Shown here: positions 2,891 through 39,867 of the stretch, piece by piece
Layout: every line of letters starts with the position of its first letter
Numbering within the stretch: the stretch's first letter is position 1
Origin: Agrococcus pavilionensis RW1
Lineage (GTDB): Bacteria > Actinomycetota > Actinomycetes > Actinomycetales > Microbacteriaceae
Reading direction: 5' to 3'
Length of the DNA: 64,000 nucleotides
Assembly (NCBI RefSeq): GCF_000400485.1
Contig: NZ_ASHR01000028.1
Coordinates: forward strand, 124,001 to 188,000
Program-made: the position numbers and the translations under genes
The notes under the pieces: model-generated
Seen by the model: the letters and a program-made list of their open reading frames with translations, nothing else
Databases searched by the model: none
Told to the model about the DNA's origin: nothing

Positions 2891-4582
2891 TCACCGGCCC
2901 CGCTCGAAGATCGACGCGTGGGCCCGCTCGACGCCGACGAAGAAGCGGTCGAGGTCGTGGAGCGCCATCCAGGTGGCGGCCGGCCCGGGCGCATCGCCCT
3001 GTCGCTGCATCGTCACCTGGTAGGCGAGGCCCTCGTGGGGCACGAGCCCGGCGCCGGGCGGTGGCGGCACGCGCACGCTCAGCCGGTTCGGGTCGCCGCT
3101 CAGGTCGAGCTTGCCGGGCGCCTCGGCGAGCGGCACGGGGTCGGGCAGTCCGCCGCCCGCGTGCTCGATCGAGAGCACCGGGATGTGCGTCGGGATGGGC
3201 GCGTCGTCGATCGGGGCGCCGGCCACGATGACGGCGTCGACGTCGTACACGGCGGTGAAGGCGGGGTCGGCGGCGAGGTTCGCGGCGGTGATGCCGCCGA
3301 GGCTCCATCCCGAGAGCAGCACGCTCGAGCCGGGTGGCACGCCCGCTTCGGCCATCGCGAGCGCGACGGCCTGCTCGAGCTGCGTGGGCGCGGTGCCGAG
3401 CTTCGCGGCGACGTCGGAGTGCACGTCGTCGATCGACGACGAGCCGGGCCGCCACACCTGCGTGCTCGGGATGCTCACGCGGTAGGCCGTCGAGCCGTCG
3501 GCGCCCGTCACCGCCGTCACGGTCACCATCGTGGATGCATCGGGGTCGGGCAGGGCCGCGTCGTCCGGCGCGCCCGCGTGCGCGTCGACCGCGCGGTTGT
3601 CGGCCTGCAGCCGCGCGAGCAGGTCGCCGGCGCTGCCCGCGATCCCGGTGCGCGGCTCGAGCGGGCCGCTCCACAGCAGCACGGGAGCGCCCGCGTCGCC
3701 GGCGATGAGCCAGTCGACGACGCCGGGCAGCGTGCCGTGGAGCCACGCGATCGTGCCGCTCACGAGCGCCGCATCGATCGAGCCGGTGCGCGCGAGCGTG
3801 CCGACGAAGGCGGCGGCGCCGCCGTTCGCGACCCACGTCGCGACGAGCGCGAGCGCGACGCCGGCGAGCAGCGCGCCGACGAGGCCCGTCGCCGCGAGCG
3901 CGATCGCGAGCGCCGCGGCGACGAGCGCCCCGATCGCCGCGAGCACCGCCGCGCCGAGCCACGCGAGGGCGTCGACGACCGCGTCGCGGATCGCGTCGAG
4001 GAGGCCGGAGACGGCGCCGCGCACGTCGTCCCACCACGAGTCGCCGATCGCCGAGCGCTCGATCTCTGCGCGGATGCGCGCCGATGCCTCCTCGGCCGCC
4101 CGCCGCTTGCGCTCGGCCGCGGCGCGCCAGTCGGCCTCCGCCTCGGCGCGGCGGCGATCGTGCAGCTCGGCGAGCGACTGCTGCTCGGCCGCGGCGCGCT
4201 CGAGCGCGGCCGCCGCATCGGCACCGCTCGCGAGCGCCGCGAGCCGGTCGCGCTCCGCGAGCGCCTCCGCCCTCGCCGCTTCGGCGATCCGCCACTCGTC
4301 GATCGCCGCGTCGGCGCTCTGCTGCGCCGCGCGCAGCTCCTCGGCGTAGTCGACGAGCGCCTGCCCCGTGACGCGATAGCGGGAGGTCGCCGAGCCGAGC
4401 TGGCCCGACACCTCCGCCGCGTCCTCGCGCACGCGGTCGAACGCCCGGGCGACGGTCGCGTCCTCGTCGCGGATGGCGAGCAGGTGCTCGATCGCCTGCT
4501 CGATCGCCGCGGCGGTGCGGAGGTAGGCGTCGCCGTGCCCCTCGACCGCTTGCCACTCCCCGCTGAGCTGCTCGAGGGTCAT
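2891..4582 (-). CDS. WXG-like/coiled-coil/membrane/alpha-beta hydrolase fusion, candidate type VII effector
   Basis: A 563-residue multidomain protein. Residues 1-100 are helical and resemble the N-terminal domains of type VII substrates. Residues 100-180 form an Ala/Glu/Arg-rich coiled coil. Residues about 202-262 are a long hydrophobic block. The C-terminal third is an alpha/beta-hydrolase with the nucleophile elbow SGWSLGG (Ser427) and candidate His at 516 or 542. Family knowledge: such folds are lipases or esterases. Substrate and destination are not known. The ATG at 4580-4582 overlaps the stop of the small WXG-like gene (ATGA), a typical pairing of a small helical partner with a larger substrate. 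A host envelope enzyme is the alternative. Confidence 0.8.
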   Translation of the reverse strand: MTLEQLSGEWQAVEGHGDAYLRTAAAIEQAIEHLLAIRDEDATVARAFDRVREDAAEVSGQLGSATSRYRVTGQALVDYAEELRAAQQSADAAIDEWRIAEAARAEALAERDRLAALASGADAAAALERAAAEQQSLAELHDRRRAEAEADWRAAAERKRRAAEEASARIRAEIERSAIGDSWWDDVRGAVSGLLDAIRDAVVDALAWLGAAVLAAIGALVAAALAIALAATGLVGALLAGVALALVATWVANGGAAAFVGTLARTGSIDAALVSGTIAWLHGTLPGVVDWLIAGDAGAPVLLWSGPLEPRTGIAGSAGDLLARLQADNRAVDAHAGAPDDAALPDPDASTMVTVTAVTGADGSTAYRVSIPSTQVWRPGSSSIDDVHSDVAAKLGTAPTQLEQAVALAMAEAGVPPGSSVLLSGWSLGGITAANLAADPAFTAVYDVDAVIVAGAPIDDAPIPTHIPVLSIEHAGGGLPDPVPLAEAPGKLDLSGDPNRLSVRVPPPPGAGLVPHEGLAYQVTMQRQGDAPGPAATWMALHDLDRFFVGVERAHASIFERGR

Positions 4583-4851
4583 CCCGCCGCCAGCTGCCGG
4601 TCGGTCTCGCGGAAGCCGGTCGCGATGCCCGCGATGCGCTCGGCGAGCGCGTGGGCCGCCTCGCGGTACCGCTCGCGGTTGTCGTCCCACGTGTCGGCGA
4701 ACGCGAGCACGCTCGAGGCGAGCCCGTCGTGCCCGACGGCGTCCGCGGCCGCGGCGCTCGAGCGGTCGGAGCCCCCGAGCTGGCGCGCGACGAAGCCGAG
4801 CTCGGCGACCGCGGCGTCCAGGTCGCCGTAGGTGATGCGGATGTCGGCCAC
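4579..4851 (-). CDS. Small WXG100-like protein, likely partner of the hydrolase fusion
   Basis: A 90-residue all-helical protein starting (M)ADIRITYGDLDAAVAELG from a GTG at 4849-4851, with GAGGAGG five bases upstream. Size, helical-hairpin pattern and a central Trp in DTWDDN fit the WXG100 superfamily, though the exact W-x-G is absent. It is the first gene after the palindrome-promoter at 4872-4918. Its stop overlaps the start of the hydrolase fusion. By analogy with known type VII pairs it may escort that protein to the secretion ATPase; this is inference. Confidence 0.75.
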   Translation of the reverse strand: MADIRITYGDLDAAVAELGFVARQLGGSDRSSAAAADAVGHDGLASSVLAFADTWDDNRERYREAAHALAERIAGIATGFRETDRQLAAG

Positions 4852-4871: not shown

Positions 4872-4918
4872 ACGCTACGCATCCCCCGCCGCGGCAGTGA
4901 ATGGGCAGGAGTGCCCAT
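4872..4918 (-). promoter_or_regulatory. Palindromic operator and -10 box, copy C
   Basis: The 18-bp palindrome ATGGGCACTCCTGCCCAT (4901-4918, minus strand) lies 23 bp upstream of TAGCGT (4872-4877), and the GTG start follows at 4851. The same arrangement stands before two other WXG100-like genes (8659-8704 and 9120-9165). Where this copy has C instead of G in one arm, the other arm changes to match, so the symmetry is preserved. Confidence 0.7.
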
Positions 4919-4948
4919 GGACAGCGGTCGCGGCGCGGGCCACGGAGG

Positions 4949-5572
4949 TCAGGCTCGCGGACGCCGCCAGCGCAGCGTCGAGACGCACGCGTCGAGCAGG
5001 AGTCGCTGGCCGTCGACGAGCGGATCCTCGACATCCATGTCGACCGGCCGGTTGATGGTCGCGGTCAGCTGCAGCGCCCGGCGGCGCTGCGTGCCGGGCA
5101 CGGGCGTGAGGTAGACGACCGTGAGCACCCGCAGCGACTCGCCCTGCACGGTCTCGAGCCGGTCGCGCTCGAAGCGCACGATGCGCTTCGACTCGTCGAG
5201 CGGCGCCGCGTCGTACTCGAGGATCGCGTGGCGCACGACCTCGTCGAGCGTCACGTCCGGTTGGGCGCGGCGGATGGAGGCGAGGATCGACGACGAGAGC
5301 CACAGCGTGTCGTCGCCCTCCTCGGTCGGCGTGAAGAACGCGACGACGTCGCCGCGCTGCATCGCCTCGAACGAGTCCTGCAGCATGCGCTGCGCCTGGG
5401 CGTAGAGGTCGGGCCGGTGGGCGCGCAGCATGCGCTCCCGGATGCCCGCCGCCATCGCGTCCTGCGTGGCGCGGTCGGGCGCGTGCCTCGCCCAGCCGGG
5501 CGGCAGCTCGAGCTCGAACTCGGGGTCGGGCGCGGCTCCGAGCTCCGCGCGCAGGTCGGGCTGCTCGCTCAT
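4949..5572 (-). CDS. Unknown 207-residue cytoplasmic protein of the island
   Basis: A soluble, acidic protein beginning MSEQPDLRAELGAAPDPEFELELPPGW. It has no signal peptide or membrane segment. The ATG at 5570-5572 has GAGGAGGAC upstream. The region after residue 60 (RMLQDSFEAMQRGDVVAFFTPTEEGDD) reads as an alpha/beta domain, but I do not recognise the family. It sits between the four-TM protein and the small WXG-like gene. A chaperone or substrate-handling role is plausible from context only. Confidence 0.8.
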   Translation of the reverse strand: MSEQPDLRAELGAAPDPEFELELPPGWARHAPDRATQDAMAAGIRERMLRAHRPDLYAQAQRMLQDSFEAMQRGDVVAFFTPTEEGDDTLWLSSSILASIRRAQPDVTLDEVVRHAILEYDAAPLDESKRIVRFERDRLETVQGESLRVLTVVYLTPVPGTQRRRALQLTATINRPVDMDVEDPLVDGQRLLLDACVSTLRWRRPRA

Positions 5573-5633
5573 GCGTCCTCCTCGATCGTGGATGCGTCGT
5601 GCCGGCCCGCGCCCGGAGCCCCTGACCGCGCGG

Positions 5634-6422
5634 TCACTGCGCGCGCAGCTCGGCGTCGATGCGGTGCAGCGTCCCGAGCTCTGCCCGCCGGGCGCGGTCG
5701 GCGATCTCGGGCGCGAGCCGGCCGCGCTCGGCGAGCAGCGCGATCGCGGCGTCGCGATCGTCGCGGATGCGCCGCAGCTCGTCGTCGGGCACGGCCGCGA
5801 GCGCAGCCGCGAGCGCGTCGCGGTCGGCGGGAGCGCCGTGCGGAGCAGCGGCGGTCGCGTCGCCGCGACCGAGCGCGAGCACGAGCGCGGCGAGCACGAG
5901 GCCGAGCGCGCCGGCGACGAGCACGGCGGCGCGCCAGCCGCCGGCGCCGGCGACGGACGCGAGCGAGGCGGCCGAGCCCATGACCCACCAGCTGAGCGCG
6001 GCGAAGACCGCGGTGCCGAGGCCGAGCAGCAGCAGCTGCCGATCGCGCGGGCGCGGCCCGCGCAGCCACCGCATGGCGGCGACGACCTGCACGATCGCGG
6101 CGACGGCGAAGCACAAGCCCGCGATCGGCACCGAGGCGTCGCCGTCGAGGCGGTGGTAGCCGAGCGGGTCGCCGAGCAGCGCCGCGAAGCCGATGACGGG
6201 CGCGACGACCGCGAGCAGGAGCGGCAGCAGCAGCCACAGGCCCGCCATGCCGCCGCCCTTCGCGCCCGCGACGCGCGCGAGCCCGGCACCGTCGTCGCCC
6301 ATGTGCTCGAGCGCGGCCGGGTGCCGCTGCAGCGCGTAGGCCTCGAGGATGCCGAGCCGCGGCTCGGCCGCGGCCGAGAGGTCGTCGGCCCACGCGAGGG
6401 CGCTGTCGTGGCGGAGGCTCAC
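5634..6422 (-). CDS. Four-TM membrane protein of the island
   Basis: A 262-residue protein with four strongly hydrophobic segments, beginning GLWLLLPLLLAVV, IAGLCFAVAAIVQVV, LLLLGLGTAVFAAL and AAVLVAGALGLVLAAL. A soluble helical tail rich in Asp/Arg/Glu/Ala ends ...RIDAELRAQ. The GTG start at 6420-6422 overlaps the stop of the gene before it (GTGA). It has no known domain. With no EccB/D/E homologue here, it is one of the few integral membrane proteins of the downstream half that could contribute to a channel; that role is inference. Confidence 0.8.
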   Translation of the reverse strand: MSLRHDSALAWADDLSAAAEPRLGILEAYALQRHPAALEHMGDDGAGLARVAGAKGGGMAGLWLLLPLLLAVVAPVIGFAALLGDPLGYHRLDGDASVPIAGLCFAVAAIVQVVAAMRWLRGPRPRDRQLLLLGLGTAVFAALSWWVMGSAASLASVAGAGGWRAAVLVAGALGLVLAALVLALGRGDATAAAPHGAPADRDALAAALAAVPDDELRRIRDDRDAAIALLAERGRLAPEIADRARRAELGTLHRIDAELRAQ

Positions 6423-7030
6423 GCGGCGCCCCCCAGGCTCCAGCCGGGCTCGTCGACGACGAGGCCCGCGGGCGGCGCGGCGCGGAACGCCGAGCCGTCG
6501 GGGCGCTCGAGGTCGATGCGGCCGGCGAGGTCGAGCAGCGCGGGCGCCGAGAGGTCGACGACCTCGGCGACCGTCGGGTCGATCGAGAGCGCGAGGGCGT
6601 GCTCGCCGTCGTCGAAGGCGAGCACGGCGAGCGCCGCGGAGGCGTCGGCCTCCTCGAGCCGCACGCGCGCGGTCACCTGCACGCCGGGCCCGAGGCTCGC
6701 GCTCTCGATGGGCTGCACGGCGGCCCCGGCGGCATGGAAGTCGGGCAGTGCCGCGCTGCCGACGACGCGCGCCCGGACGATCGAGAAGAGCGGCAGCGCG
6801 ACGGGCCACAGCTGCCACGAGAGCAGGTCGTCGGCCTCGCGCCGGTCGAGCCCCGCCCGCAGCAGCGCGGGCACGGCGCGGTCGAGCTCGTCGTTCCAGC
6901 GCTCGCCGAACGCGGCGCGGAGGGCGGTCGTGCTCTCGGCGACCCACGCCGCGTCATCGCCGCCGAGCGGCGGCATGCCGAGCCAGCCGGGGGCGGCCGA
7001 GCTCGCGGAGATCCGCCACGTGGCCGTCAC
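6419..7030 (-). CDS. Unknown 203-residue protein of the island
   Basis: Soluble protein of unknown function starting (M)TATWRISASSAAPGWLGMPPLGG from a GTG at 7028-7030 preceded by GAGGGG. It contains an acidic helical middle (RWNDELDRAVPALLRAG) and beta-rich C-terminal repeats (VTARVRLEEADASAALAVLAF). No signal peptide or membrane segment. Translational coupling to the four-TM protein (GTGA overlap) suggests the two work together. Confidence 0.8.
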   Translation of the reverse strand: MTATWRISASSAAPGWLGMPPLGGDDAAWVAESTTALRAAFGERWNDELDRAVPALLRAGLDRREADDLLSWQLWPVALPLFSIVRARVVGSAALPDFHAAGAAVQPIESASLGPGVQVTARVRLEEADASAALAVLAFDDGEHALALSIDPTVAEVVDLSAPALLDLAGRIDLERPDGSAFRAAPPAGLVVDEPGWSLGGAA

Positions 7031-7064
7031 CGATCACACCCCTCGTCGCCCGAGCGCGGCCCGC

Positions 7065-8282
7065 TCACCAGACGACGTCCAGCACGGGCACCTTCTTCTT
7101 GATCGTCTCATGCCCCGTGAACATCGAGATCCAGCCGTCGTACTTGAGCGGCACGGCGAAGAGGCCGTGCAGGAGGTCGGATGCGGTGGCGAGCGCGGGC
7201 AGCACCCCGGTCGTCACGTCGCCGAGCTTCTCGTAGGCCGCGACGTCCTTGCCGGTCAGCAAGCGCAGGAACACGTCGCCGAAGCCGTTGGGGTTGTTGC
7301 CGGTCGCGAGCTGGCGCAGGCTCCCGAGCGCGCCGGTCGCGCCGCGGCCGTGGAAGAGGTAGGCGAAGCCGAGCTCCCTCGCCTGCGAGCCGGCGTTGCG
7401 CCAGGCGGTCGCGCCGAGCACGCCGCCGAACATGTCGTCGGCGAAGCTGAACTTGCCTCCCGCGATCTTGCCGAGCTTCCCCCACGGCAGCACGCCGGCG
7501 ATCGCGAGTCCGAGCTGCAGCCACCCGGCGTCCCCGCGGATCTTCTGGTAGATCGTCAGCCCGAGGGCGACGAGTCCGATGATCCCGCCGATGAGCGCGA
7601 GGATCGGGCCGCCGAAGATGATCGCGAGGATGCCGACGGCGAGGCCCGCCCAGCTGAGGGCCTTCTGCAGTCCCGCGACGAAGCCGTCGACGTTGTCCCA
7701 GAAGCCGTCCTTGACCTTGCCCTCGAGCACGTCGCCGATGTCGGTCGCGGCCGTCTCGAAGGCCTCCTCCCACGTGTCGTAGTCGGCGTCCCAGTAGCCG
7801 GCCTCGTCCTCCCACGCGCGGTAGGCGGCGAGCTTCGCGGCATCCTCCTCCGCCTGCTGCTCGGCCTCGGGGCTGTCGGGCTCGGGCTGGAGCCAGCCGC
7901 CCGTGCCGCGCGGCTCGACCGAGCCGGGGAGCGCGGCGAACGTCGCCCACAGCTCGGCGCACCTGTCGGCGTGCGCCTTAATCTTCGGCTGCACGCCGGC
8001 GAGCGCCTCGCCGTAGGCGACGAGCACCGGGCCGGTCGGCTCGTAGAGCTCTCCCGCTTGCCGCAGCAGCCCGTGCGAGTCGCCGACGACCTCGCGCAGC
8101 TTCTCGACCGCGAGGCCCTTCTGCCCGTCGGCGCCGTCCTTGACCTGCTCGAGCGTCGTCGCGCTCGCCTGCATGACCCGCCCGAGCGATTCGATCGACC
8201 GACCGCGCGCGACGATCCCCTCGGGGTCGCCCTCCACGTACTCGATCCAGCGGCCCTTCGGCGACTGCGCTCCCGTGTGCAT
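7065..8282 (-). CDS. T7SS-signal-type protein with central membrane hairpin, probable type VII substrate
   Basis: A 405-residue protein. Residues about 1-110 (RWIEYVEGDPEGIVARGRSI...) match the helical N-terminal module seen on putative actinobacterial type VII substrates: a GDP-x-x-I/V entry followed by a long helical pair. An acidic Trp-rich linker follows (AGYWDADYDTWEEAFE). Next is a hydrophobic hairpin (SWAGLAVGILAIIFGGPILA / ALIGGIIGLVALGLTIY) and a C-terminal domain of unknown function ending KKKVPVLDVVW. The ATG at 8280-8282 follows the WXG100-like gene at 8306-8614 by 23 bp. No catalytic motif is evident. A membrane-inserted substrate or a structural subunit are both possible. Confidence 0.78.
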   Translation of the reverse strand: MHTGAQSPKGRWIEYVEGDPEGIVARGRSIESLGRVMQASATTLEQVKDGADGQKGLAVEKLREVVGDSHGLLRQAGELYEPTGPVLVAYGEALAGVQPKIKAHADRCAELWATFAALPGSVEPRGTGGWLQPEPDSPEAEQQAEEDAAKLAAYRAWEDEAGYWDADYDTWEEAFETAATDIGDVLEGKVKDGFWDNVDGFVAGLQKALSWAGLAVGILAIIFGGPILALIGGIIGLVALGLTIYQKIRGDAGWLQLGLAIAGVLPWGKLGKIAGGKFSFADDMFGGVLGATAWRNAGSQARELGFAYLFHGRGATGALGSLRQLATGNNPNGFGDVFLRLLTGKDVAAYEKLGDVTTGVLPALATASDLLHGLFAVPLKYDGWISMFTGHETIKKKVPVLDVVW

Positions 8283-8305
8283 CGTCGTCTCCTCGTCGTC
8301 CTGGG

Positions 8306-8614
8306 TCAGCCCTCGGCGGAGGCGGCCTCGAGCTTGAGGGAGGCCTCCTCGTCGAACTCCGCGAAGCCCTCGAGCACGCCCTGCACGTGGTCGCGCACCT
8401 TCGTCATGTCGCGCGCGAGGTCGACGCGCTTGTCGTTCCAGCGGCGCTCGAAGTCGCCCGCGCCCGAGCGCAGCTCCCAGCGTCCGTAGGGCGTGCCGAT
8501 GGCCGCCTCGAGCTCGTTCGACCGGTCGCCCGCGCTCTCGAGCTCGACGATGATCCCGTCGAGCTGCTGCCGCAGCGCGAGCAGCTCGTCGAACGTGATG
8601 AGCACGTCGTCCAT
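8306..8614 (-). CDS. WXG100-like protein (102 residues)
   Basis: All-helical small protein beginning MDDVLITFDELLALRQQLDGII. Length, helical-hairpin pattern and Trp residues at the turn (YGRWELR, ERRWNDKR) fit the ESAT-6/WXG100 superfamily, although the canonical W-x-G is replaced. The ATG at 8612-8614 has GGGGAG four bases upstream. It is the first gene after the palindrome-promoter at 8659-8704 and precedes the T7SS-signal protein, so the two form another small-plus-large pair. Confidence 0.8.
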   Translation of the reverse strand: MDDVLITFDELLALRQQLDGIIVELESAGDRSNELEAAIGTPYGRWELRSGAGDFERRWNDKRVDLARDMTKVRDHVQGVLEGFAEFDEEASLKLEAASAEG

Positions 8615-8658
8615 GTCTCTCCCCGGTTCCCTCGGCGGCGGCGCCGCTCCTGCTCCTC

Positions 8659-8704
8659 AACGTAGGCGGCGGATGCGTCGGGGACGATGGGGAGGACTCC
8701 CCAC
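8659..8704 (-). promoter_or_regulatory. Palindromic operator and -10 box, copy B
   Basis: The 18-bp site GTGGGGAGTCCTCCCCAT (8687-8704, minus strand) lies 22 bp upstream of TACGTT (8659-8664); the ATG is at 8614. It sits immediately before (downstream of) the hairpin that terminates the WXG100 transcript in the sense that transcription passes the 8733-8766 hairpin first, so this promoter restarts transcription after that stop. Confidence 0.75.
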
Positions 8705-8732
8705 CGCCCGCTCGGCTCGCGTCCGCGGACGC

Positions 8733-8766
8733 CGAGAGGGGCCGGCCTCGCGGCCGGCCCCTCTCG
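8733..8766 (-). terminator. Strong hairpin terminator after the WXG100 gene
   Basis: A perfect 14-bp GC-rich stem (8733-8746 with 8753-8766) with a 6-nt loop begins 10 bp beyond the stop codon of the WXG100 gene. There is no U-tract, as is common in high-GC actinobacteria. Together with the promoter just upstream of the gene it would make the WXG100 mRNA a separate short transcript. Confidence 0.75.
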
Positions 8767-8775
8767 ATCGGTGGT

Positions 8776-9063
8776 TCAGCTGCCGGCGAGCTGCTCGTCG
8801 AGCGACTGGATCGCCTGCATCATGCCCCGCAGCGCCTCGCCCATCTCGGAGATGCCCTCGATCGCCTTCTCGAGACCCGACGTGAGCTCCTCGTAGCCCT
8901 CGCCGAACTTGCCCGACGCGTGCTGCGTCTTGAAGTCCTCACCCAGCAGGGTGTCGACCTGGCTCTTCAGGTCCTTCAGGACACCCGAGATGTCCTCCTT
9001 GCCCGTGTCGAGCTTGCCCGCCACGGACTCCATCTCTGCATACGATGCGCCGAAATCGCTCAT
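8776..9063 (-). CDS. WXG100 family (ESAT-6-like) protein
   Basis: A 95-residue helical-hairpin protein starting MSDFGASYAEMESVAGKLDTGKED. Size and heptad pattern are those of EsxA/EsxB-type proteins, the small substrates and partners of type VII systems. It contains no Trp at all; the turn reads GEDFKTQHASGKFGEGY in place of W-x-G. The ATG has AGAGGA upstream. It lies directly downstream of the FtsK/EccC-type ATPase gene, with its own palindrome-promoter (9120-9165) and a strong terminator (8733-8766). This would allow a higher level than the ATPase. Confidence 0.9.
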   Translation of the reverse strand: MSDFGASYAEMESVAGKLDTGKEDISGVLKDLKSQVDTLLGEDFKTQHASGKFGEGYEELTSGLEKAIEGISEMGEALRGMMQAIQSLDEQLAGS

Positions 9064-9119
9064 GGATCTGATCCTCTCGAGGTCTGGTTCGCGGGCCCGC
9101 TGCGGGCCGCCCTGGAGCC

Positions 9120-9165
9120 AAGGTACGAAAGCGAGCCTGGGGACTCAATGGGGAGGAGTCCCCAT
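9120..9165 (-). promoter_or_regulatory. Palindromic operator and -10 box, copy A
   Basis: The perfect inverted repeat ATGGGGACTCCTCCCCAT (9148-9165, minus strand) lies 22 bp upstream of TACCTT (9120-9125). Transcription would start near 9113, about 50 nt before the WXG100 start. A third TCCCC half-site follows a few bases after the palindrome. The palindrome abuts the -35 position, which suits an activator or a repressor. Confidence 0.75.
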
Positions 9166-9169
9166 GGCC

Positions 9170-12100
9170 TCAGCCCTCCGCGCCCACCGACGCGGCCTCG
9201 GGCTCCGCGGCCGGCGCCGACGACGCATCCGCCCCGACGGGCGCCGGGGGCCGGGCCGCGTCGTCGGGCACGAGCGGCAGCTGCACCGTGACCGCGCGCC
9301 CCTGCTGCACGAAGATGCCGCGCCCCTCGGGGAAGTCGGCGCGCTTGACCTTCGGGAACGGCACCTTGAAGACCGCGTCGCCGTCGTACGCATCCGGCTT
9401 GAGGACGATGCCCTTGCGACCCGCCTTGAAGTCGCCGATGAAGCCGAAGCCGCCGGTGACCTGCGTGACGTCGGCGTCGCCGATGAGCAGGTGGTCGCTG
9501 CGGTTGATCGCCTGGAAGAGGCCCTTGAGCGCGCGCTCCGCGTCGGAGTCGGCGAACTGCGGCACGTTCTCCATCACGATCATGATGCGGCCGGGGATCG
9601 ACTCGTCGGCGACGATCTCGGCGAGCTCGGTCGCGAGCGCCTTCGCGTCGTCGGGTCGCGTCGCGCTGCGCACCCACGGGCGGAAGCCCGCGAGCACCGA
9701 GCGGCGGCCCGCGAAGTGGAAGAGCTTGACCTCGGGGTCGAACCGCTCCATCGCGATGACGAGCGCCTTCATCGCGTTGGTCTTGCCCGAGCCCGGCGGG
9801 CCCGCGACGACGAAGGTGCCGATGGGGTCGAAGTCGCGCGCGGCGAGCGTGTCCTCGGCGACGCCGAGCACCGGGAAGTCGTCGACCCGCGCGGGGAGCT
9901 GCCCGAGCTCGAGCCGCGTCGGCAGCGCGCCGATCTCCTCGACGTCGCGCACGCCCTGCGCGCGCAGCGCGTCGGCGAGCTGGCCCATGAGCTTCGTCTG
10001 CTCGGCGACGTTCGGCGTGCCGCCGAGGGTCGCGACCTGCATCTCGAGGCCGTCGATGATCGCGCGGCCGGGCGCCGACTGGTCGTCGAGCACGTCCTTC
10101 GGCGCGCCGACGAGCGTGTAGCCCGACTCGTCCGAGAGCCGCAGCACGACGCGGCGCGAGATGTTCGAGCTCACCGCGGTCGGCACGGCGCCCGAGCGGT
10201 CGGCGGTCGCGATCGCGTGGATGCCGAGCGGCCGCCCCTCGCCGAGGATGCGCATGAAGACCTGGTAGAACGGCGAGCGCGCGCTCGTCACCTCCCAATC
10301 GGCCTTGAACTGCGGGTAGTTGTCGAGCAGCAGGAAGATGCGGGTCGCCTTCGGGTCGACGAGGTCGCGGTACTCGGTGAGGCTCGCGGCGCTCGCCTCG
10401 GCGAAGGCCTTGCCGCGCCGGTCGAGCTCGCGGCCGAGCGAGCGCAGCAGCCGCTGCACGCGCTCGGCGTCGTCGCCGGCGATGATCGAGCCCACGTGCG
10501 GGAGCTGCTCCATCGACTTGAGCGCCCCGGAGGCGAAGTCGAGCCCGTAGACCTCGGCGCCGCCGAGCTCGGGCCGCATGCCCGCCGCGATGCCGATCGT
10601 CTTGAGCAGCGTCGACTTGCCCGAGCCGGAGGTGCCGTAGACGAGCAGCGAGCCATCGCGGTCGGGGTGGAAGTAGACGGGGTCCTGCCGCTGCCGCTCG
10701 GGGATGTCGGCCTTGCCGAGCACGATGCGGCTGTCGCCCTCGATCGCGAGGTCGCGCAGGTCGACCGTCGTCTCGAGGTCGTCGAGCCACGGCCGCCGCG
10801 GGGCGGGGATGCCGGCGCGCTCGGTCGCCCGGATGAGCGTCGCGACGATGCGCTTCTGGTCGTTGGGGCCGAGGTCCTCGTCGTGCGAGTCCGACTCGGG
10901 CGCCGCCTCGGGCTCCCAGCGCTGCACGGAGCCGAAGCGGAGCTCGGCGACCTTGACGTCGGCGACCTTGACCTCGTCGCGGCGGGTCCAGCCGCCCGCG
11001 TACGCCGACTGGAACGGCACGAGGCGGCCGGGGCCCGTCTTCGCGATGCCTCGGCCGGGGATCGAGGGCGGGAACGACGCCGCGATGGGATCGTCGACGA
11101 CGTCCTTCGAGTCGGATTCGTCGGCCATCCGGAGCGCGACGCGCAGGTTGGTGTTGGCGCGCAGGTTGTCCTTGATGACGCCGGCGGGGCGCTGCGTCGC
11201 CATGATGAGGTGGATGCCGAGCGAGCGGCCGCGCTGCGCGATGTCGACGACGCCGTCGACGAACTCGGGCACCTCGCCCGCGAGCGCCGCGAACTCGTCG
11301 ATCACGAGCACGAGCGCGGGCGGCGTCTCGGGGTCCTGGCGCTTCTCGAGCTCGAGCAGGTCCTTCGCCTTCTTGCGGTTGAAGAGGTGCTCGCGGTGGT
11401 GGAGCTCGGCGCGCAGGCTCGTGAGCGCGCGGCGCACGAGGTGGGGACTGAGGTCGGTGACGAGGCCGACGCAGTGCGGCAGCTCGACGCAGTCGGCGAA
11501 GGCGGAGCCGCCCTTGTAGTCGACGAAGAGGAACGTGACGCGGTCGGGGCTGTGCGCGCTCGCCATCCCGAGCACCCACGCCTGCAGGAACTCCGACTTG
11601 CCGGCGCCGGTCGTGCCGCCGACGAGCGCGTGCGGGCCCTGCGTGCGCAGGTCGAGCGTCATCGCGTCGCTCGCGCCCTGGCCCATGATCGCGCGGAGGT
11701 TCCCGGCCTTCTTGAGCCTCGGCTTCGGCTCGCCGGAGCGGTCGAGGATCGTGTTGTTCTGCCGCCAGCGGTCGATGACCGCGTTCGGGTCCTCCGCGAG
11801 CTCCGGGCCGACGAGCGAGAGGAACATGACGCTGTCGGGGATGTCGGAGGAGTCGTTGATGACGATGCTCGCGTCGACGACGGGCGCGAGGCGCTTCGCG
11901 AGCATGTCCATGTACTCGCTCGAGACGCCCTCGACCTTGACGCCCTCGTACTCGACGCCCGAGCGCACGGTGCCGACCCGAGCATCCTCGAGCCCGCCCG
12001 AGACGTCGATGTAGCTGCGGCACACCGCGGGCAGCGACTCGACCGTGGGCGCGACGAAGACGCCGTAGACGCCGACCGCGGCGCCGCGCTCGAGGATCTG

Positions 12101-13768
12101 CGTGAGCCGCGGCCGGTCGACGGGCGCGTCGTTCGTGACGACGAGCACGACCGAGGTCTGCACGCTCGTGACGGTGTCCTTCGCGGCGCGCTCGACGTCG
12201 GAGCCGTAGCGCATGGGGTGCCAGTCCTCGTCGAACGGCGTCTTGCGGTCGGCCGCGGCCTGCTTCGAGCGGCCGAGCACGAGCTCCTCGAGCGCGCTCA
12301 GGAGCGCGGCGCCCGCGGTCGCCGAGTCGGCGAGCGGCATCTCCTTGAACGGGCTCGTCTCGCTCGTCGTGTGGGGCAGCCACTTCATCCACTCGAGCTC
12401 GCCCGTCCACTCCGCGTCGCAGATCGCGACCGTGACGACCTCGTTGGGCGCGTGCAGGCCGTAGAGCTGCACGGCCATGCCGCGCAGCGCGTCCGACGCG
12501 AGCGACTTCGGGCCCGCGATGCCGATCGAGCCGACGGTCGCGAACGACTCGACGATCGGCACGTCGTCGACGTAGCGGTAGCGCTCGCGCAGCCGCTCGA
12601 CGCGCTCGATGTACTCCGGCAGCCCGTCCTGCGACTCCTCGTCCTTGATGGAGTTCCGCGACTCGGCGCGGCACGTGCCGAGCCGCACCGAGAGGAAGTT
12701 CCAGTGCTCGGGCCTGCGGGTCCAGAGCATGGGGCCGAGCCGCATCGCGTGCTCGAAGACCTCCGCGACGGGCGGCACCTCGAGGCCGCGGATCCGCTCC
12801 TCGATCGGCTTCTCGCGGTAGAGCGTCTCCTCGAGCTCCTCGTAGCGCGTCTCGAACAGCTGCGTCTCGAGCTTGCGCTTCTGCCCGTTCTGGGTGCGCA
12901 TGTTGATGAAGTTGCCGAGCAGCATGAGCGGCGTCATGAGCGCGATGAGGATCGAGCGCGGGTTGTTCGTCATCGCGAACATCGCGCCCGCGAGCAGGAT
13001 CGGCGTGACGAGCATCGGCCACGGGAAGATGCGCTCGACCATCTCCTTCGGCAGCCGCGGGCCCTTGTAGGCGGTGCCGGGGTAGCGCGCCTCGACGCGC
13101 GGCGAGCGGTTGAACATGAGCGCGCCCCCGCGCTCGAGCACGGGGTCGGGCCCGGAGGCGTCGAAGGCGCCCACGAGCCAGACGGCGAGCGTCGAGTCGC
13201 CGAGCGTGAACGGCGCGCCCGGCACCACGCGCAGCCGCGAGACAGGAGAGCCGTCGACGACGACGCCGTTCGCCGAGCCCCGGTCGACGACCTCGATGTG
13301 GGTGCCGACCTCGATGCGGGCGTGCCGCTTCGAGACGAGCGGGTCGGCGAGCACGATGTCGTTCGCCGCGTCGCGCCCGATCGAGGCATGGCCGCGGCCG
13401 AGCTGGAACTCCTGGCCCGCGAGCGGGCCGCCGATGACCCGCAGCACCGCGATCGCCTCGAGCGCGCTCCCGGCGGGCCCGCCGCGGCGCCGGGCGTCGG
13501 CGCCGAGGTTGACGACCTGGGTGTGGAAGCCGCTGCCGATCGGCGCCTCGGCGATGAGCGCGTCGGGTTGCAGCTGCACGAGCTGCTGCTCGGTCGGCGG
13601 GGCGACCGCGAGCGAGAGGGTGTCGCCGTCGGCGAAGGGGATCGAGCGCGCGGGGTCGGCGAGCGCGATCTGCCGCGCGACGTCCTCGACGGTCGCGGTC
13701 GAGTCGGCCGTGATGACGACGTCGGTCGCCTCGGTCGTCGGGCGGTGCAGGGTGAGCTTGACCTTCAT
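9170..13768 (-). CDS. Type VII secretion FtsK/SpoIIIE ATPase (EccC/EssC-like) with N-terminal FHA domain
   Basis: The 1532-residue motor of the island. Residues 1-100 form a beta-rich, ubiquitin- or FHA-like region. An FHA domain spans about 122-195 (GRDAANDIV, SKRHARI, GSANGV). Two membrane segments occupy about 250-288. Three P-loop domains follow. Domain 1 has Walker A GTTGAGKS (718-725) and an intact Walker B VLVIDEF (Asp824-Glu825). Domains 2 and 3 have good Walker A loops (1045-1052 and 1323-1330), but the Walker B ends are LLLDN (1146-1150) and IVMEN, lacking the Asp-Glu pair. A single chain with N-terminal FHA resembles Firmicutes EssC more than split mycobacterial EccCa/Cb. It starts 9 bp after the FHA/winged-helix gene. 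Confidence 0.95.
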   Translation of the reverse strand: MKVKLTLHRPTTEATDVVITADSTATVEDVARQIALADPARSIPFADGDTLSLAVAPPTEQQLVQLQPDALIAEAPIGSGFHTQVVNLGADARRRGGPAGSALEAIAVLRVIGGPLAGQEFQLGRGHASIGRDAANDIVLADPLVSKRHARIEVGTHIEVVDRGSANGVVVDGSPVSRLRVVPGAPFTLGDSTLAVWLVGAFDASGPDPVLERGGALMFNRSPRVEARYPGTAYKGPRLPKEMVERIFPWPMLVTPILLAGAMFAMTNNPRSILIALMTPLMLLGNFINMRTQNGQKRKLETQLFETRYEELEETLYREKPIEERIRGLEVPPVAEVFEHAMRLGPMLWTRRPEHWNFLSVRLGTCRAESRNSIKDEESQDGLPEYIERVERLRERYRYVDDVPIVESFATVGSIGIAGPKSLASDALRGMAVQLYGLHAPNEVVTVAICDAEWTGELEWMKWLPHTTSETSPFKEMPLADSATAGAALLSALEELVLGRSKQAAADRKTPFDEDWHPMRYGSDVERAAKDTVTSVQTSVVLVVTNDAPVDRPRLTQILERGAAVGVYGVFVAPTVESLPAVCRSYIDVSGGLEDARVGTVRSGVEYEGVKVEGVSSEYMDMLAKRLAPVVDASIVINDSSDIPDSVMFLSLVGPELAEDPNAVIDRWRQNNTILDRSGEPKPRLKKAGNLRAIMGQGASDAMTLDLRTQGPHALVGGTTGAGKSEFLQAWVLGMASAHSPDRVTFLFVDYKGGSAFADCVELPHCVGLVTDLSPHLVRRALTSLRAELHHREHLFNRKKAKDLLELEKRQDPETPPALVLVIDEFAALAGEVPEFVDGVVDIAQRGRSLGIHLIMATQRPAGVIKDNLRANTNLRVALRMADESDSKDVVDDPIAASFPPSIPGRGIAKTGPGRLVPFQSAYAGGWTRRDEVKVADVKVAELRFGSVQRWEPEAAPESDSHDEDLGPNDQKRIVATLIRATERAGIPAPRRPWLDDLETTVDLRDLAIEGDSRIVLGKADIPERQRQDPVYFHPDRDGSLLVYGTSGSGKSTLLKTIGIAAGMRPELGGAEVYGLDFASGALKSMEQLPHVGSIIAGDDAERVQRLLRSLGRELDRRGKAFAEASAASLTEYRDLVDPKATRIFLLLDNYPQFKADWEVTSARSPFYQVFMRILGEGRPLGIHAIATADRSGAVPTAVSSNISRRVVLRLSDESGYTLVGAPKDVLDDQSAPGRAIIDGLEMQVATLGGTPNVAEQTKLMGQLADALRAQGVRDVEEIGALPTRLELGQLPARVDDFPVLGVAEDTLAARDFDPIGTFVVAGPPGSGKTNAMKALVIAMERFDPEVKLFHFAGRRSVLAGFRPWVRSATRPDDAKALATELAEIVADESIPGRIMIVMENVPQFADSDAERALKGLFQAINRSDHLLIGDADVTQVTGGFGFIGDFKAGRKGIVLKPDAYDGDAVFKVPFPKVKRADFPEGRGIFVQQGRAVTVQLPLVPDDAARPPAPVGADASSAPAAEPEAASVGAEG

Positions 13769-13777
13769 GCGTCGTCC

Positions 13778-14518
13778 TCAGTCCTCGTCGGTCTCGCGCA
13801 GCGCCGCGTCGTCGAGCAGGGCGAGGTCGGCCCGGGTGACGAGCTGCGACGAGACGGCGTACTCGACGAGCCGAGCTCGGCGGTTGCTCGCGAGCTTCCC
13901 GACGCCGCCCCGCAGGCCCTGCACGCCCATCCGGTCGAGCTTGTCGCACACGTTGTCGAGCTTGCGGTTGAAGCGGCTCATCGTCCAGCCGAGCCGGTCG
14001 GCGGCCGCGGCGCTCGAGGGCAGCTCGCTCACGCCCACGCCGTCGCGGCGCAGCATCGGCTCGGCGAGCGCGACGATGAGCAGCTTCTGCAGCTCGGTGA
14101 GGCCGACGGGCATGACGGTCGTCTCGCCCGACGAGCGGCGCCGGTGCTCGGTCGAGAGCGAGAACGACGCGTCGTCGATGTGCGCGCCGATCTCGTAGGT
14201 CGTGGGGCCCGCGGTGAAGACGATGGATGCGTCGGAGAAGACGATCGGCAGGCGCGCGCCGGGCGAGAGCCACGACTGCACCGCCCCGCCGGCGCTCGAG
14301 ACGGTCGCCGAGAGCCGCGAGCCGACGTTCGCGAGCCACCACAGGCCGTCGCGGTGGTGCACCTCGAGGAACGCGCGGTGCAGGTACTGGTTGTCGTCGA
14401 CCGTGAGATCGCCCTCGCGGCCGATGACGAACGGCCGCGAGGGGTCGAGCGTGAACCACTCCCCCGCGAACTCGAGCTGCAGCCTGGGCGCCTGGCCGGC
14501 CCGTGCCTGCTCAACCAT
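13778..14518 (-). CDS. FHA domain protein with C-terminal winged-helix-like region
   Basis: About 246 residues starting MVEQARAGQAPRLQLEFAGEW. The N-terminal half has an FHA-like fold (FVIGREGDLTVDD, then the strand AFLEVHHRDGLWWLANVGS), although the usual phosphothreonine-binding Ser-x-x-His is altered. The C-terminal half (LTELQKLLIVALAEPMLRR ... LGWTMSRFNRKLDNVCDKL) looks like a winged helix with a recognition helix. A Thr-rich linker (SGETTVMPVG) resembles kinase-substrate motifs near FHA domains. I chose the ATG at 14518, with GAAGGGA upstream; an ATG at 14536 would add six residues. It overlaps the kinase stop by 8 bp. It could link phosphosignalling to transcription of the island. Confidence 0.8.
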   Translation of the reverse strand: MVEQARAGQAPRLQLEFAGEWFTLDPSRPFVIGREGDLTVDDNQYLHRAFLEVHHRDGLWWLANVGSRLSATVSSAGGAVQSWLSPGARLPIVFSDASIVFTAGPTTYEIGAHIDDASFSLSTEHRRRSSGETTVMPVGLTELQKLLIVALAEPMLRRDGVGVSELPSSAAAADRLGWTMSRFNRKLDNVCDKLDRMGVQGLRGGVGKLASNRRARLVEYAVSSQLVTRADLALLDDAALRETDED

Positions 14519-16004
14519 CGACACATCCCTTCGCATCGTTCGACTGCCGACCGTCCGAGCGCACGAGCGTGACGAGGATGCACGACTCGCCGTCGCTGTC
14601 GCGCTGCACGGTGACCGTCTCGCCCGCGGCGGTCGCGATCGTCGGGTCGGCGTCGCTCGGCTCGTAGCGGTAGCGGAAGCTGTCGCCCGCTTGCGGCTGC
14701 GCGTTGACCCACGTGAACGTGACGGAGTCGCCCTCGACGGTGCCCGTGACGTTGATGGGCGCCGGCGGCCGCTGCGGGGCGGCGGGCGCCGCGATCGTCT
14801 GGCTCGGGTTCGCGGGCGGCTGGCTCGGCGCGCTGCCGGCGACCGCCAACCACACGATGCCCCCGCCGACGAGCACGACGAGGCCGGCGCCGACGGCCGA
14901 CGCGATCGTGCGGCGACGGCGATCGGGCGCGGGGGCCTCCGGCTCCGGGACGGCCGCCGGGGCCGGCGCGCCCGCGGCCTGGCCGGGCCTCGGCCGCCGG
15001 ATCGTCGCGTCGGGCGCCACGGCGCCCGCGGGCATCGCGGGAGCCGGCTCGCCCGCGTGCGGGTCGATCGAGACGACGCCCCGGATGCGGGTCGCGCCGC
15101 CGTCCTCCTCGTCGACGGCGCCGGCGTCGAGGGAGTCGTCGAGCACGTCGAGCGGCGTGACGGGCAGCGCCATCTCGGCCTCGACCTGCTGCAGCGCGCG
15201 GCCGAACGCCATCGCTGTCGCGTAGCGGCGCGAGGGGTCGGGGTCCATCGCCGAGGCGAGCACGGCCTCGAGCCGCGGCGGCACGTCGTGGCGCGCGAGC
15301 GGCGAGATCTCGCCGCGCTGGATCCGGTCGATGAGGTCGACGCTCGTGTTGCTGCCGCCGGGCAGCTCGAAGGGCGTCCTGCCCGCGAGGAGCGTCGAGA
15401 GCGTCGCGGCGAGCGAGAAGACGTCGGATGCGGGGGTCGACCTCGGCGGGTCCTGGAACGCCTCGGGCGGCGACCACGGGATCGACATGCCGCTCGCGTC
15501 GTCGGCGCCGCCCGAGCTCGTCGCGATGCCGAAGTCGGTGAGCGCCGGCCGGTTGTAGGCGGTGACGAGGATGTTCGCGGGCTTGATGTCGCGGTGCAGG
15601 ATCCCGGCGCGGTGGGCGGTCTCGACCGCGCCTGCGATCTGCACGCCGAGCGAGAGCACCTCGGGCACCGCGAAGCGGTCGCGGCGGTAGCGCACGCCGA
15701 GGTTGGGCTTCGAGCAGTACTCCATCGCGAGGTACGGGCGCCCGTCGGGAGCGACGGCCGCGCCGTAGATCGTCACGATCGAGGGATGCGTCGAGAGCTG
15801 CGCCATGACGTTCGCCTCGTGGCGGAAGTTCTCGATGAGCTCTCGGTTGACCGCGTCGGGCAGCAGCACCTTGATCGCCACCTGCCGCGACGGCAGCAGC
15901 TGCTGGTAGAGGAACACGTCCGCGAAGCCGCCGGAGCCGAGCAGCGAGACGTACTCGTAGCCGGGCAGCTCGGGCGGGGCGGAGGGGGCGCGCTTCGGGC
16001 TCAC
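14511..16004 (-). CDS. Ser/Thr protein kinase with outer FN3-like domain
   Basis: A 497-residue Hanks-type kinase. The Gly-rich loop GSGGFADV (23-30), Lys45, Glu63, HRDIKPANI (Asp139) and DFG (157-159) are all present, so it should be active. A Pro/Ala-rich linker follows, then one membrane helix (about 366-389) and an outer C-terminal fibronectin-type domain (PPAPINVTGTVEGDSVTFTWVN...). PASTA repeats, usual in PknB-type kinases, are absent. The GTG start at 16002-16004 overlaps the preceding FHA gene (GTGA). Likely targets are the FHA-containing proteins and the threonine motifs of the protein at 30743-32128. Bifidobacterium Pkb2 of the PFNA cluster is the closest known parallel. Confidence 0.93.
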   Translation of the reverse strand: MSPKRAPSAPPELPGYEYVSLLGSGGFADVFLYQQLLPSRQVAIKVLLPDAVNRELIENFRHEANVMAQLSTHPSIVTIYGAAVAPDGRPYLAMEYCSKPNLGVRYRRDRFAVPEVLSLGVQIAGAVETAHRAGILHRDIKPANILVTAYNRPALTDFGIATSSGGADDASGMSIPWSPPEAFQDPPRSTPASDVFSLAATLSTLLAGRTPFELPGGSNTSVDLIDRIQRGEISPLARHDVPPRLEAVLASAMDPDPSRRYATAMAFGRALQQVEAEMALPVTPLDVLDDSLDAGAVDEEDGGATRIRGVVSIDPHAGEPAPAMPAGAVAPDATIRRPRPGQAAGAPAPAAVPEPEAPAPDRRRRTIASAVGAGLVVLVGGGIVWLAVAGSAPSQPPANPSQTIAAPAAPQRPPAPINVTGTVEGDSVTFTWVNAQPQAGDSFRYRYEPSDADPTIATAAGETVTVQRDSDGESCILVTLVRSDGRQSNDAKGCVDG

Positions 16005-17443
16005 TGCGCGTCCTCCGCGCGAGCGGGCTCGATCGCCACGACGACGCTGTCGCCGAGGTCGAGCCGGTCGCCGAGCTGCAGGATCGTCGCCGCCTCGGGC
16101 CGCAGCCGCTGGGGCGCCGAGCCCTCGCGCAGCAGGAGCGTGCCGTTCGTCGACGAGAGGTCGACGGCCACGAGGTTCCAGTCGTCGACGCGCAGCTCGA
16201 GGTGGCTGCGCGAGATGTCCTCGCTCGGGCTCTCGACCGTCACGAGCCGCGGCACGCGGCCGTCCTCGACGCGGCGCGATCGCGGCCTGCGGCCGAGCAC
16301 GACGCCGCGGCCGAGCGGCACGCGCTCGCCCGAGGGCAGCACGACGACGGCGACCTCGGGTCGGCGGCGCTGGGCGGCGCTGCGGTCGTCGACCGGCGCG
16401 CCGCACGTCGTGCACGCCGTCGTGCCCGGCGCGTTGACGTGGCCCGAGGCGCACAGCGTCGAGAGCACGAGCGGACCCGTCGCGGGCGGCCCGGCGTGCT
16501 GCGCCGGGGCTGCCGGCGGCTGCGCGGCCGCCGCGCGCTCGGCCTGCAGCCGGCGCGCCTGCTCGGCGGTGATCGTCATGCCGTCGTGGTCGCCCATGTC
16601 GAGGGCACCGGGGGCGGATGCGGCGGGCTCGGCGACCGGGACGGGCCGCGTCGCGCCGGCGTCCGGTCGCTGCGACGCCTCGGCCGCCTCGCGCGAGGGG
16701 GCGGCGGCGCGCGGCGCCGGCGCGATCTCGCTCACGTCGATCGCGGGCTTGATGAACCCCGGCACCGAGTCGATGAGCCCGCCGATCGGGCCGTCCGGCT
16801 CCGGCTCCCGAGCGGGAGGGCTCGCGGGCTCCGGAGCGCTCGGCGCGACCTGCTCGGCAGGCGCGCTCGGCGCGGCGGGCGCTTCGGCGGGCGCCCCGCC
16901 GGCCTCCGCCTCGGCGCGCTCGGCGGCGACCGCGCGGGGCGGCAGGGTCTGGCCGAAGGCGCCGAAGCGCGCCTCGTCGTCGGGAGCCTCGGCGACCGGC
17001 GCGGGCGGAGCCGGCTCGCTCGCCGCATCCGCGCTCCCGGGCGCGATGCGCACGGCGGCGACGCGCGCGACGCCGCCCTCGAGCGGCAGGGTCTGACCCG
17101 CGAGCGCGGCGAGCCCGCCGGCGTCGACGACCGCGTCGGGCGCGGTCTCGTCGAGTGCCCACTCCTCGCCGAAGCGATCGGGCAGCGTCGCGTCGTCGGC
17201 CGTCGCGGGCACGCCGTGGCGGCGCAGCAGCACGCGCGCGCCCGGGGTGTCGACGAGCCCGATGAGCGCCGTCGGCTCGAGCCCGAGGATCGTCCGCAGC
17301 CCCTCGGCGTCGCGCACGGTCGCGGCGGCGTCGTAGAGCGCTCGTGCCCGCACGGGCGGCAAGTCGCGCTCGCACACGACGACCGCGGCGCCCGCCGCGA
17401 CGCACCAGGCCTCGCCGGGCGCGTACTCCAGGCGTGCGCTCAT
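16001..17443 (-). CDS. FHA protein with zinc-ribbon
   Basis: A 480-residue cytoplasmic protein. The N-terminal 150 residues form an unrecognised domain (MSARLEYAPGEAWCVAAGAA...). A long Pro/Ala/Glu-rich disordered middle follows. A short zinc-ribbon-like motif (CASGHVN...CTTCG) comes before a C-terminal FHA domain with canonical residues GRR, SRSH and STNGT. FHA domains bind phosphothreonine, so it is a probable reader of the neighbouring kinase. ATG at 17441-17443 overlaps the phosphatase stop (ATGA), and its own stop overlaps the kinase start. Confidence 0.88.
   Translation of the reverse strand: MSARLEYAPGEAWCVAAGAAVVVCERDLPPVRARALYDAAATVRDAEGLRTILGLEPTALIGLVDTPGARVLLRRHGVPATADDATLPDRFGEEWALDETAPDAVVDAGGLAALAGQTLPLEGGVARVAAVRIAPGSADAASEPAPPAPVAEAPDDEARFGAFGQTLPPRAVAAERAEAEAGGAPAEAPAAPSAPAEQVAPSAPEPASPPAREPEPDGPIGGLIDSVPGFIKPAIDVSEIAPAPRAAAPSREAAEASQRPDAGATRPVPVAEPAASAPGALDMGDHDGMTITAEQARRLQAERAAAAQPPAAPAQHAGPPATGPLVLSTLCASGHVNAPGTTACTTCGAPVDDRSAAQRRRPEVAVVVLPSGERVPLGRGVVLGRRPRSRRVEDGRVPRLVTVESPSEDISRSHLELRVDDWNLVAVDLSSTNGTLLLREGSAPQRLRPEAATILQLGDRLDLGDSVVVAIEPARAEDAQ

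Positions 17444-32368: not shown

Positions 32369-32371
<3 letters not shown>
32321..32371 (-). other. Long three-segment stem-loop that includes the rpoC stop codon
   Basis: Arms pair in three blocks: TGAGTGC with GCACTCA, GCGCTCAA with TTGAGCGC, and GCGAC with GTCGC. They are interrupted by a 3x3 and a 1x1 internal loop, and the apical loop is TGC. The TGA stop of rpoC (32369-32371) forms the base of the stem, so a terminating ribosome would cover it. Confidence 0.6.
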
Positions 32372-36253
<3,882 letters not shown>

Positions 36254-36296
36254 TGCTTTTCCTCTTGTCTTCGAGTTCTGTTCTGCGGCTGCCGGA

Positions 36297-39767
<3,471 letters not shown>

Positions 39768-39783
39768 GGCAGATACCTCCGGG

Positions 39784-39809
39784 CCGGGAAGGGTTGCGGG
39801 TCTTCCCGG
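39784..39809 (-). promoter_or_regulatory. Leader hairpin next to the rpoB ribosome-binding site
   Basis: A perfect 8-bp stem CCGGGAAG/CTTCCCGG (39784-39791 with 39802-39809) with a 10-nt loop begins three bases upstream of the rpoB GGAGG. It could affect initiation at the TTG start. Confidence 0.45.
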
Positions 39810-39848
39810 GATCGTGTCGTCGGTGAGAGACTCGTCAACACCCTTGAA

Positions 39849-39867
39849 GCGCCCGGTCTCCGGGCGC
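39849..39867 (-). promoter_or_regulatory. Tight leader hairpin of rpoBC
   Basis: A perfect 8-bp GC stem (39849-39856 with 39860-39867) with a 3-nt loop lies in the first half of the rpoB leader, about 45 nt after the predicted transcription start. Possible attenuation or mRNA-stability element. Confidence 0.45.

Follow-up and report, generated by a model that had tools for sequence, protein, structure and literature searches.

The lux and tra boxes recognized by LuxR/TraR-type proteins are dyads of 18 to 20 bp that lie near position −43, at the edge of the −35 element, and from which class II activation takes place. Two described type VII secretion systems (T7SSs) bear on the locus considered here. 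One is ESX-1 of mycobacteria, next to which is encoded EspM, a protein with an N-terminal FHA domain and a C-terminal helix-turn-helix (HTH) that, according to two reports, controls T7SS gene expression (PMC7002343, PMC11005418). The other is the T7SSd of Olsenella and Bifidobacterium, for which a report gives an EssC-type ATPase with N-terminal FHA, a WXG100 protein, a Ser/Thr kinase (TsdD), and a large Ig-like protein (TsdI) (PMC11217815). The locus in question is a T7SS cluster within a stretch of 64,000 nucleotides, here called the window, from Agrococcus pavilionensis RW1 (assembly GCF_000400485.1, contig NZ_ASHR01000028.1, positions 124,001 to 188,000). Our subject is a palindromic box that stands before three small WXG100-like genes of this cluster, together with the protein encoded at 13778 to 14518, which is a candidate for reading it.

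Judged by domains, the window cluster is like the T7SSd of that report: it has an EssC with N-terminal FHA, WXG100, a protein kinase (match to Pkinase, E 1.5e-36), and a large protein of Ig-like type (match to Big_9, E 2.6e-83). It differs in that it adds PP2C, RDD, transglutaminase, DUF58, MoxR, and FHA-like/HTH genes. The stem “microbacteri” does not occur in the main text of PMC11217815.

A palindromic promoter module in the window and across Micrococcales

The pattern RTGGGSASTCCTSCCCAT has three exact matches in the window, all of them 18-bp palindromes on the minus strand. In the order of transcription they lie at 9148 to 9165, upstream of the WXG100 gene 8776 to 9063; at 8687 to 8704, upstream of the gene 8306 to 8614; and at 4901 to 4918, upstream of the gene 4579 to 4851, where the palindrome bears a symmetric C6/G13 change. 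The −10 boxes are TACCTT (9120 to 9125) and TACGTT (8659 to 8664), each 22 bp past its palindrome, and TAGCGT (4872 to 4877), 23 bp past. Counted on both strands, the three sites give 6 strand-matches, versus a mean of 0.30 and a maximum of 3 in window shuffles. Exact matching thus reproduced the inverted repeats, −10 hexamers, spacings (23, 22, and 22 bp), and small WXG100-like genes of a preliminary description of this DNA, and its statement that the window holds no further match held at up to 3 mismatches. The compensated double change that it ascribed to a copy C is real (positions 6 and 13 of the 4901 palindrome) if copies A, B, and C follow the transcription order 9148, 8687, 4901. A third half-site, TCCCC, is indeed present past the 9148 and 8687 palindromes, but it recurs in only 8 of 117 module instances; it is therefore not part of the conserved module and was rejected as a general element.

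Elsewhere in the 2.88-Mb genome (50 contigs), the motif ATGGGSASNNSTSCCCAT occurs at 0 to 1 mismatch in four places, the three window sites plus position 60005 of contig C24. With up to 3 mismatches, the total for the reversed-pattern control was 28 versus 44 per strand. TANNNT at 22 or 23 bp accompanies the motif in 7 of the 21 own-genome loci examined (L001 to L015 and L044 to L049). The four that are added to the window sites stand before the non-coding locus at C24:60005, a second, near-identical WXG100 gene at C24:58847, a WXG-like gene at C7:38109, and, at C14:258468, a gene with a look-alike behind the box of a further genome, G013 (L027). At least one match to the pattern of the preliminary description at up to 2 mismatches was found in 23 of the 24 Agrococcus genomes, the reversed control giving 0 to 2 per strand and genome; in the sole exception (G005), variants like ATGGGGACTTCTCCTCGT with a −10 at 22 bp precede three WXG-like genes.

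Perfect copies of ATGGGSASNNSTSCCCAT are present in 87 of 299 Microbacteriaceae genomes (reversed control, 1 genome) and in 112 of 396 genomes of the order Micrococcales. The family scan, supplemented by a few other loci, yielded 75 distinct perfect sites, and TANNNT lies at 22 or 23 bp in 58 of them; over the range of 15 to 35 bp, the counts were 39 at 22 bp, 20 at 23 bp, 4 at 21 bp, and 4 at all other distances together. To these scans can be added a set of 80 loci (1,546,307 bases) picked solely by similarity to the FHA-like/HTH protein, the motif being ignored: it contained 38 perfect sites in 33 loci, 32 of them with a −10, whereas 200 palindromic permutations of the motif gave means of 0.02 sites and 0.00 sites with a −10 (maxima, 2 and 1). 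The motif scan that the preliminary description had suggested for this genome and for Microbacteriaceae returned a recurrent module of near-fixed spacing at T7SS loci. Taken together, the comparisons strongly support the view that the palindrome, the 22- or 23-bp interval, and the −10 form a conserved promoter module before unlinked T7SS genes in many Micrococcales.

Variants of the module were also seen. In Antribacter, Oerskovia, Isoptericola, Cellulosimicrobium, and genomes of family f9 (L292, L294, L309, L312, L314, L365, L367, L371, and L372), TTGAGT or TTGACT takes the place of TANNNT 22 to 23 bp past the box. Genus g96 (family f12) has the perfect box in 25 of 27 genomes and gave the highest counts of its scan, with a maximum of 14 boxes in one genome (G667). 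Cryobacterium carries a drifted box before WXG100 genes (L302 and L313, at 15340 and 15379), with a form, ATGGTGAATTGACACCAT, that is changed in both arms and keeps the dyad.

A profile was made of 117 distinct modules. Since these had been preselected by motif plus TANNNT, only the free positions count as evidence, and the clearest of them is G20 (0.85). The −10 consensus is near TAGCGT and the −35 hexamers are degenerate. T18, which is fixed by the selection, and G20 look like the start of a −35 element at 17-bp spacing. In the window, the final base of the 9148 palindrome and the next five read TTGAGT, 17 bp ahead of TACCTT; the corresponding hexamers at 8687 and 4901 are TCGTCC and TTCACT. 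If the last T of the palindrome is taken as the first base of the −35, a 22-bp distance leaves a 17-bp spacer and puts the dyad centre at about −43.5, which is the place of a class II activator. The position hence fits a class II activator and not only the operator that the preliminary description had in mind. The arrangement expected of a class II promoter, a dyad at fixed distance that abuts the −35 with its centre near −42, is found here, as judged from sequence only.

Genes and a non-coding RNA behind the boxes

To define targets, the 80 loci were searched for sites that keep 15 or 16 of the 16 fixed bases and have a −10; a complete gene lies behind 62 of the 68 found. These 62 genes fall into ten clusters (13, 11, 10, 10, 6, 4, 3, 3, 1, and 1 members) between which there is no similarity at E 1e-3, and several of which may be remote members of one WXG superfamily. 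Pfam matches, in overlapping counts, were to WXG100 (35), WXG100_2 (27), LXG (13), YbaB-like (6), RDD (1), and PP2C (1). The last two, in L298 (RDD) and L310 (PP2C), represent machinery-type targets of relatives. In G099, the palindrome precedes a large Ig-like gene (L105:4379 to 10444; Big_9 E 1.6e-85), without TANNNT at 22 or 23 bp. This gene content indicates that most modules, which lie at many unlinked places, belong to T7SS substrates and a few to machinery. The proposal of a dedicated regulator that switches the substrates separately from the machinery is accordingly upheld in part: a dedicated module is strongly supported and the separation applies in this window, but in relatives the sites also precede Ig-like, RDD, and PP2C genes.

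In the window itself, the gene behind the 9148 box (8776 to 9063, minus strand, as are the other window genes of the T7SS cluster given by coordinates) encodes a WXG100 protein (MSDFGASYAEM...; PF06013, E 2.2e-10). The gene at 8306 to 8614 is WXG-like by eye (MDDVLITFDELLALR...) and has no Pfam match; similar genes occur in relatives behind the same module. It is followed in the same run by 7065 to 8282, a presumed T7SS effector gene by position only, without a Pfam match. The gene at 4579 to 4851, also WXG-like by eye (VADIRITYGDLD...) and without a Pfam match, has a similar gene behind the same module in G015 (L029), and downstream of it lies an open reading frame for another presumed effector by position (2891 to 4582; no Pfam match).

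The three WXG100-like genes of the preliminary description are thus part of a larger set, as sites occur genome-wide and one precedes a non-coding RNA. In 15 Agrococcus genomes, RW1 (at C24:60005) among them, the module has 23-bp spacing and stands before a stretch of about 165 nt that ends in a G+C-rich terminator-like hairpin; in the RW1 genome this structured RNA lies on the minus strand at about 59.8 to 60.0 kb of C24 (L409, 1434 to 1599). No shared reading frame was seen in the four loci translated. A DNA search matched the locus in 16 of 24 Agrococcus genomes, in G023 over the box alone. In a common fold of 15 sequences, 98% of cells are paired, and 12 of 37 pairs are changed on both sides, whereas shuffles gave 4.7 and none of 500 reached the observed number; pairing drops to 56 to 57% when the structure is slid by one column, a control in which a structure derived from the same alignment is favoured. 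Nothing in Rfam came near a gathering score for these loci. The RNA is a probable member of the secretion regulon, judging from the module before it. In the Agrococcus genomes G001 and G014 (L016 and L028, minus strand), the module is followed by another, similar non-coding stretch, about 100 nt long.

A candidate regulator and its presumed mode of action

The presence of the module tracks the 13778 to 14518 protein. After removal of weak regulator matches (G046, G191, and G228 in the family; G378, G417, G430, G443, G444, G483, G506, G509, and G592 in the order), the 396 order genomes comprised 111 with both the perfect motif and the regulator, 1 with the motif alone, 53 with the regulator alone, and 231 with neither. 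The corresponding numbers are 95, 1, 42, and 224 outside Microbacteriaceae and 82, 5, 29, and 183 within it. Restricted to the 286 family genomes that bear WXG100, they are 82, 5, 29, and 170, i.e., a motif rate of 82/111 with the regulator versus 5/175 without. The order exception, G602, has two sites, and the one inspected (L364) lies inside an open frame whose product, by eye, resembles an acyl-CoA synthetase. In 16 tabulated genera, the box was, G602 apart, found only in regulator-bearing genomes (e.g., 4/4 versus 0/3 in g93 and 3/7 versus 0/26 in g94).

A further contrast concerned EssC. It was searched in 79 family genomes, 17 of the 111 regulator carriers and 62 of the 188 non-carriers, chosen mostly from genera in which carriers occur; the EssC type was delimited at E below 1e-50, a line drawn after the hits were seen. 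Among genomes with this EssC type, the motif is present in 8 of 14 with the regulator versus 1 of 11 without (P = 0.033, or P = 0.003 without the bare G051 palindrome), P values from Fisher tests that overstate independence because the genomes are related. The single motif among those 11 is the G051 palindrome, which has no −10, box variants not having been looked for there. Overall, module presence follows the FHA-like/HTH protein better than it follows WXG100 or EssC genes alone.

The candidate, of 246 amino acids, is encoded between the kinase and EssC genes; the closest record, from Agrococcus lahaulensis, has a protein 98% identical to it. Thirty aligned homologues share 55% mean column identity and a near-invariant LGWxxxxFNRKLDNVCDKL; the HTH stretch has diverged in the proteins of two family genomes, G059 and G181, neither of which contains a perfect site. 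Neither Pfam nor NCBIfam has a model found to cover the 30 members, and a PDB sequence search with the regulator profile gave a best E of only 0.39. HTH_8 (Fis-type) matches 6 of the 30 weakly (best E 0.0044, below the Pfam cut-off). The N-terminal part is FHA-like by eye, and hhalign to the FHA of EssC aligns IGRxxDL..DD in register at a probability of only 4%; with no Pfam FHA match at E 0.1 among the 30 members, the FHA label that this protein had been given was not confirmed. GerE was rejected as its family (none of the 30 members matched at E 0.1). An EssC start lies at most 0.9 kb downstream of the regulator gene in 40 of 78 loci, an adjacency also seen in the window. In G044 the regulator and EssC genes are about 1.7 Mb apart, with two boxes near EssC, a separation that suits a diffusible regulator. 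A kinase homologue ends at most 1.1 kb upstream in 55 of 79 loci; since it is absent there in 24, 19 of which are Microbacterium records, the pairing is not universal. The regulator match contains one in-frame stop in six genomes of family f18 (G431, G457, G529, G570, G598, and G659).

On this comparative evidence, the palindromes probably are the sites of a dedicated class II activator of T7SS-substrate genes, most likely the 13778 to 14518 protein. This protein would act on the dyad, probably as a dimer, and would occupy about −52 to −35, touching the degenerate −35 element; once bound, it would recruit RNA polymerase to promoters, presumably sigma-A-type, that precede T7SS-substrate genes scattered over the chromosome. 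For this protein we infer binding to the box, activation rather than repression, dimerization, and kinase/phosphatase control, the last being an attractive idea given the neighbouring kinase and PP2C genes in the window cluster.

Besides the relatedness of the genomes and the limits of the EssC contrast, several observations weigh against this reading. TANNNT at 22 or 23 bp is absent from 17 of the 75 perfect sites. At the level of the order, just 12 of 31 perfect sites have it at 21 to 23 bp; of the others, 5 show TTGAGT at 22 bp and 14 neither. Of the genomes with the regulator, 53 of 164 in the order and 29 of 111 in the family have no perfect site; some of these carry variants, and the rest are unexplained. 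Conversely, five family genomes have a perfect palindrome and no regulator; the 3 inspected lack a −10 at 22 or 23 bp (the others are G088 and G152). The within-genus contrasts agree but are small, the protein family has no confident domain match, and co-occurrence with the box was compared for this one regulator.

An alternative that we consider unlikely is that a different activator encoded elsewhere, for instance of LuxR/NarL or CRP type, binds the box and that the FHA-like/HTH protein merely travels with the system. An 18-bp dyad near −43 is used by both LuxR-type and CRP-type class II activators, so that its size and position here would suit either; GerE proteins are present, with 6 matches in the RW1 genome and some in 24 of 24 Agrococcus genomes; and the HTH assignment of the candidate is weak. 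Against this stands the distribution of the box: of the 112 order genomes that have it, 111 also encode the FHA-like/HTH protein, and no perfect copy with a −10 was found in the 11 genomes that keep this EssC type but are devoid of that protein. The 18 other window cluster proteins scanned gave no HTH match at E 0.001; among other regulator families, the search covered GerE, in Agrococcus.

Somewhat less probable still is a box that serves as an operator, with a repressor occluding the −35 region of otherwise competent promoters. EspM, an FHA/HTH regulator of ESX-1, represses whiB6 according to PMC11005418. In addition, the palindrome touches the −35 position, and next to the 9148 copy there is a fair −35 (TTGAGT, 17-bp spacing). 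However, a near-fixed phasing of 22 or 23 bp to the −10 in many genera is more typical of activator sites, and a box upstream of the core promoter, not across it, combined with degenerate −35 hexamers, is likewise more activator-like. The notion that the palindromes are chance repeats, or promoter pieces duplicated with tandem WXG100 genes, and have no regulator has next to no chance of being correct, for although the three window sites fit into 4.3 kb and near-identical duplicates occur among the WXG100 genes, the same module recurs at unlinked places and in other families, in front of genes unlike one another as well as a non-coding RNA, the Cryobacterium double change keeps the dyad, the permutation controls yield almost no sites, and chance or duplication as the origin was rejected on both these controls and the window shuffles.

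A more tentative extension can be put forward: FHA-like/HTH activators of a hitherto undescribed family, in many cases accompanied by a Ser/Thr kinase and PP2C, might read the state of the T7SS machine and, through one conserved box, switch on chromosome-wide substrates and a small structured RNA. We regard this as possible though rather doubtful; if true, it would mean a phospho-controlled T7SS feedback circuit common to several Micrococcales families.

The surrounding cluster and its relation to known systems

The candidate regulator gene (13778 to 14518), singled out by co-occurrence, the conserved LGW motif, and the weak HTH_8 matches in relatives, is flanked downstream by the gene for the EssC-type ATPase with N-terminal FHA (9170 to 13768; FtsK_SpoIIIE E 6.6e-57; FHA PF00498 E 3.1e-12 at residues 129 to 190; TIGR03928 E 1.9e-159, below its cut-off). 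Directly upstream lies the Ser/Thr protein kinase (14511 to 16004; Pkinase match given above), followed by an FHA-domain protein (16001 to 17443; FHA E 2.1e-7), a PP2C phosphatase (17440 to 18267; PP2C_2 E 1.6e-10), and a large Ig-like/fn3 protein (24436 to 30549; Big_9 match given above). Within window positions 1305 to 39920, the T7SS island is flanked by genes that by eye resemble rpoC/rpoB (32369 to 39920) and rpsL/rpsG/fusA (below 1680). It seems to interrupt a gene neighbourhood that is usually close.

The module would give a strict, short signature for listing T7SS substrates in many genera from their promoters instead of their homology, so that proteins lacking any Pfam match could be included. 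It also points to one protein as the candidate regulator and reveals an unlisted non-coding RNA that probably belongs to the secretion regulon. Among the literature matches listed, which did not cover subscription papers and preprints, there was no published description of this box or protein in these bacteria, no published work on T7SS transcription control in them, and, in the 10 papers listed of 4,472 that matched, no occurrence of the letters of the motif 14-mer.

With the LuxR/TraR boxes, the box shares its dyad length and its position near −43; it differs in sequence, and its candidate regulator has, as said, no GerE match. With EspM, the candidate shares the location of its gene beside a T7SS locus. 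It differs in size (246 amino acids versus 363 for EspM), EspM is reported as a repressor, of whiB6, and the stem “palindrom” is absent from the main texts of PMC7002343 and PMC11005418. EspM membership was rejected, NF052403 matching 0 of the 30 regulator members at E 0.1, and the 13778 to 14518 protein is hence not an EspM by this model test. EspM is nevertheless a precedent, from mycobacteria, for control of T7SS genes by an FHA/HTH protein encoded next to them (PMC7002343, PMC11005418). The parts, an activator, a box, and a regulon, are of known kinds, but there appears to be no earlier description of this regulator family, of its box, or of the RNA.

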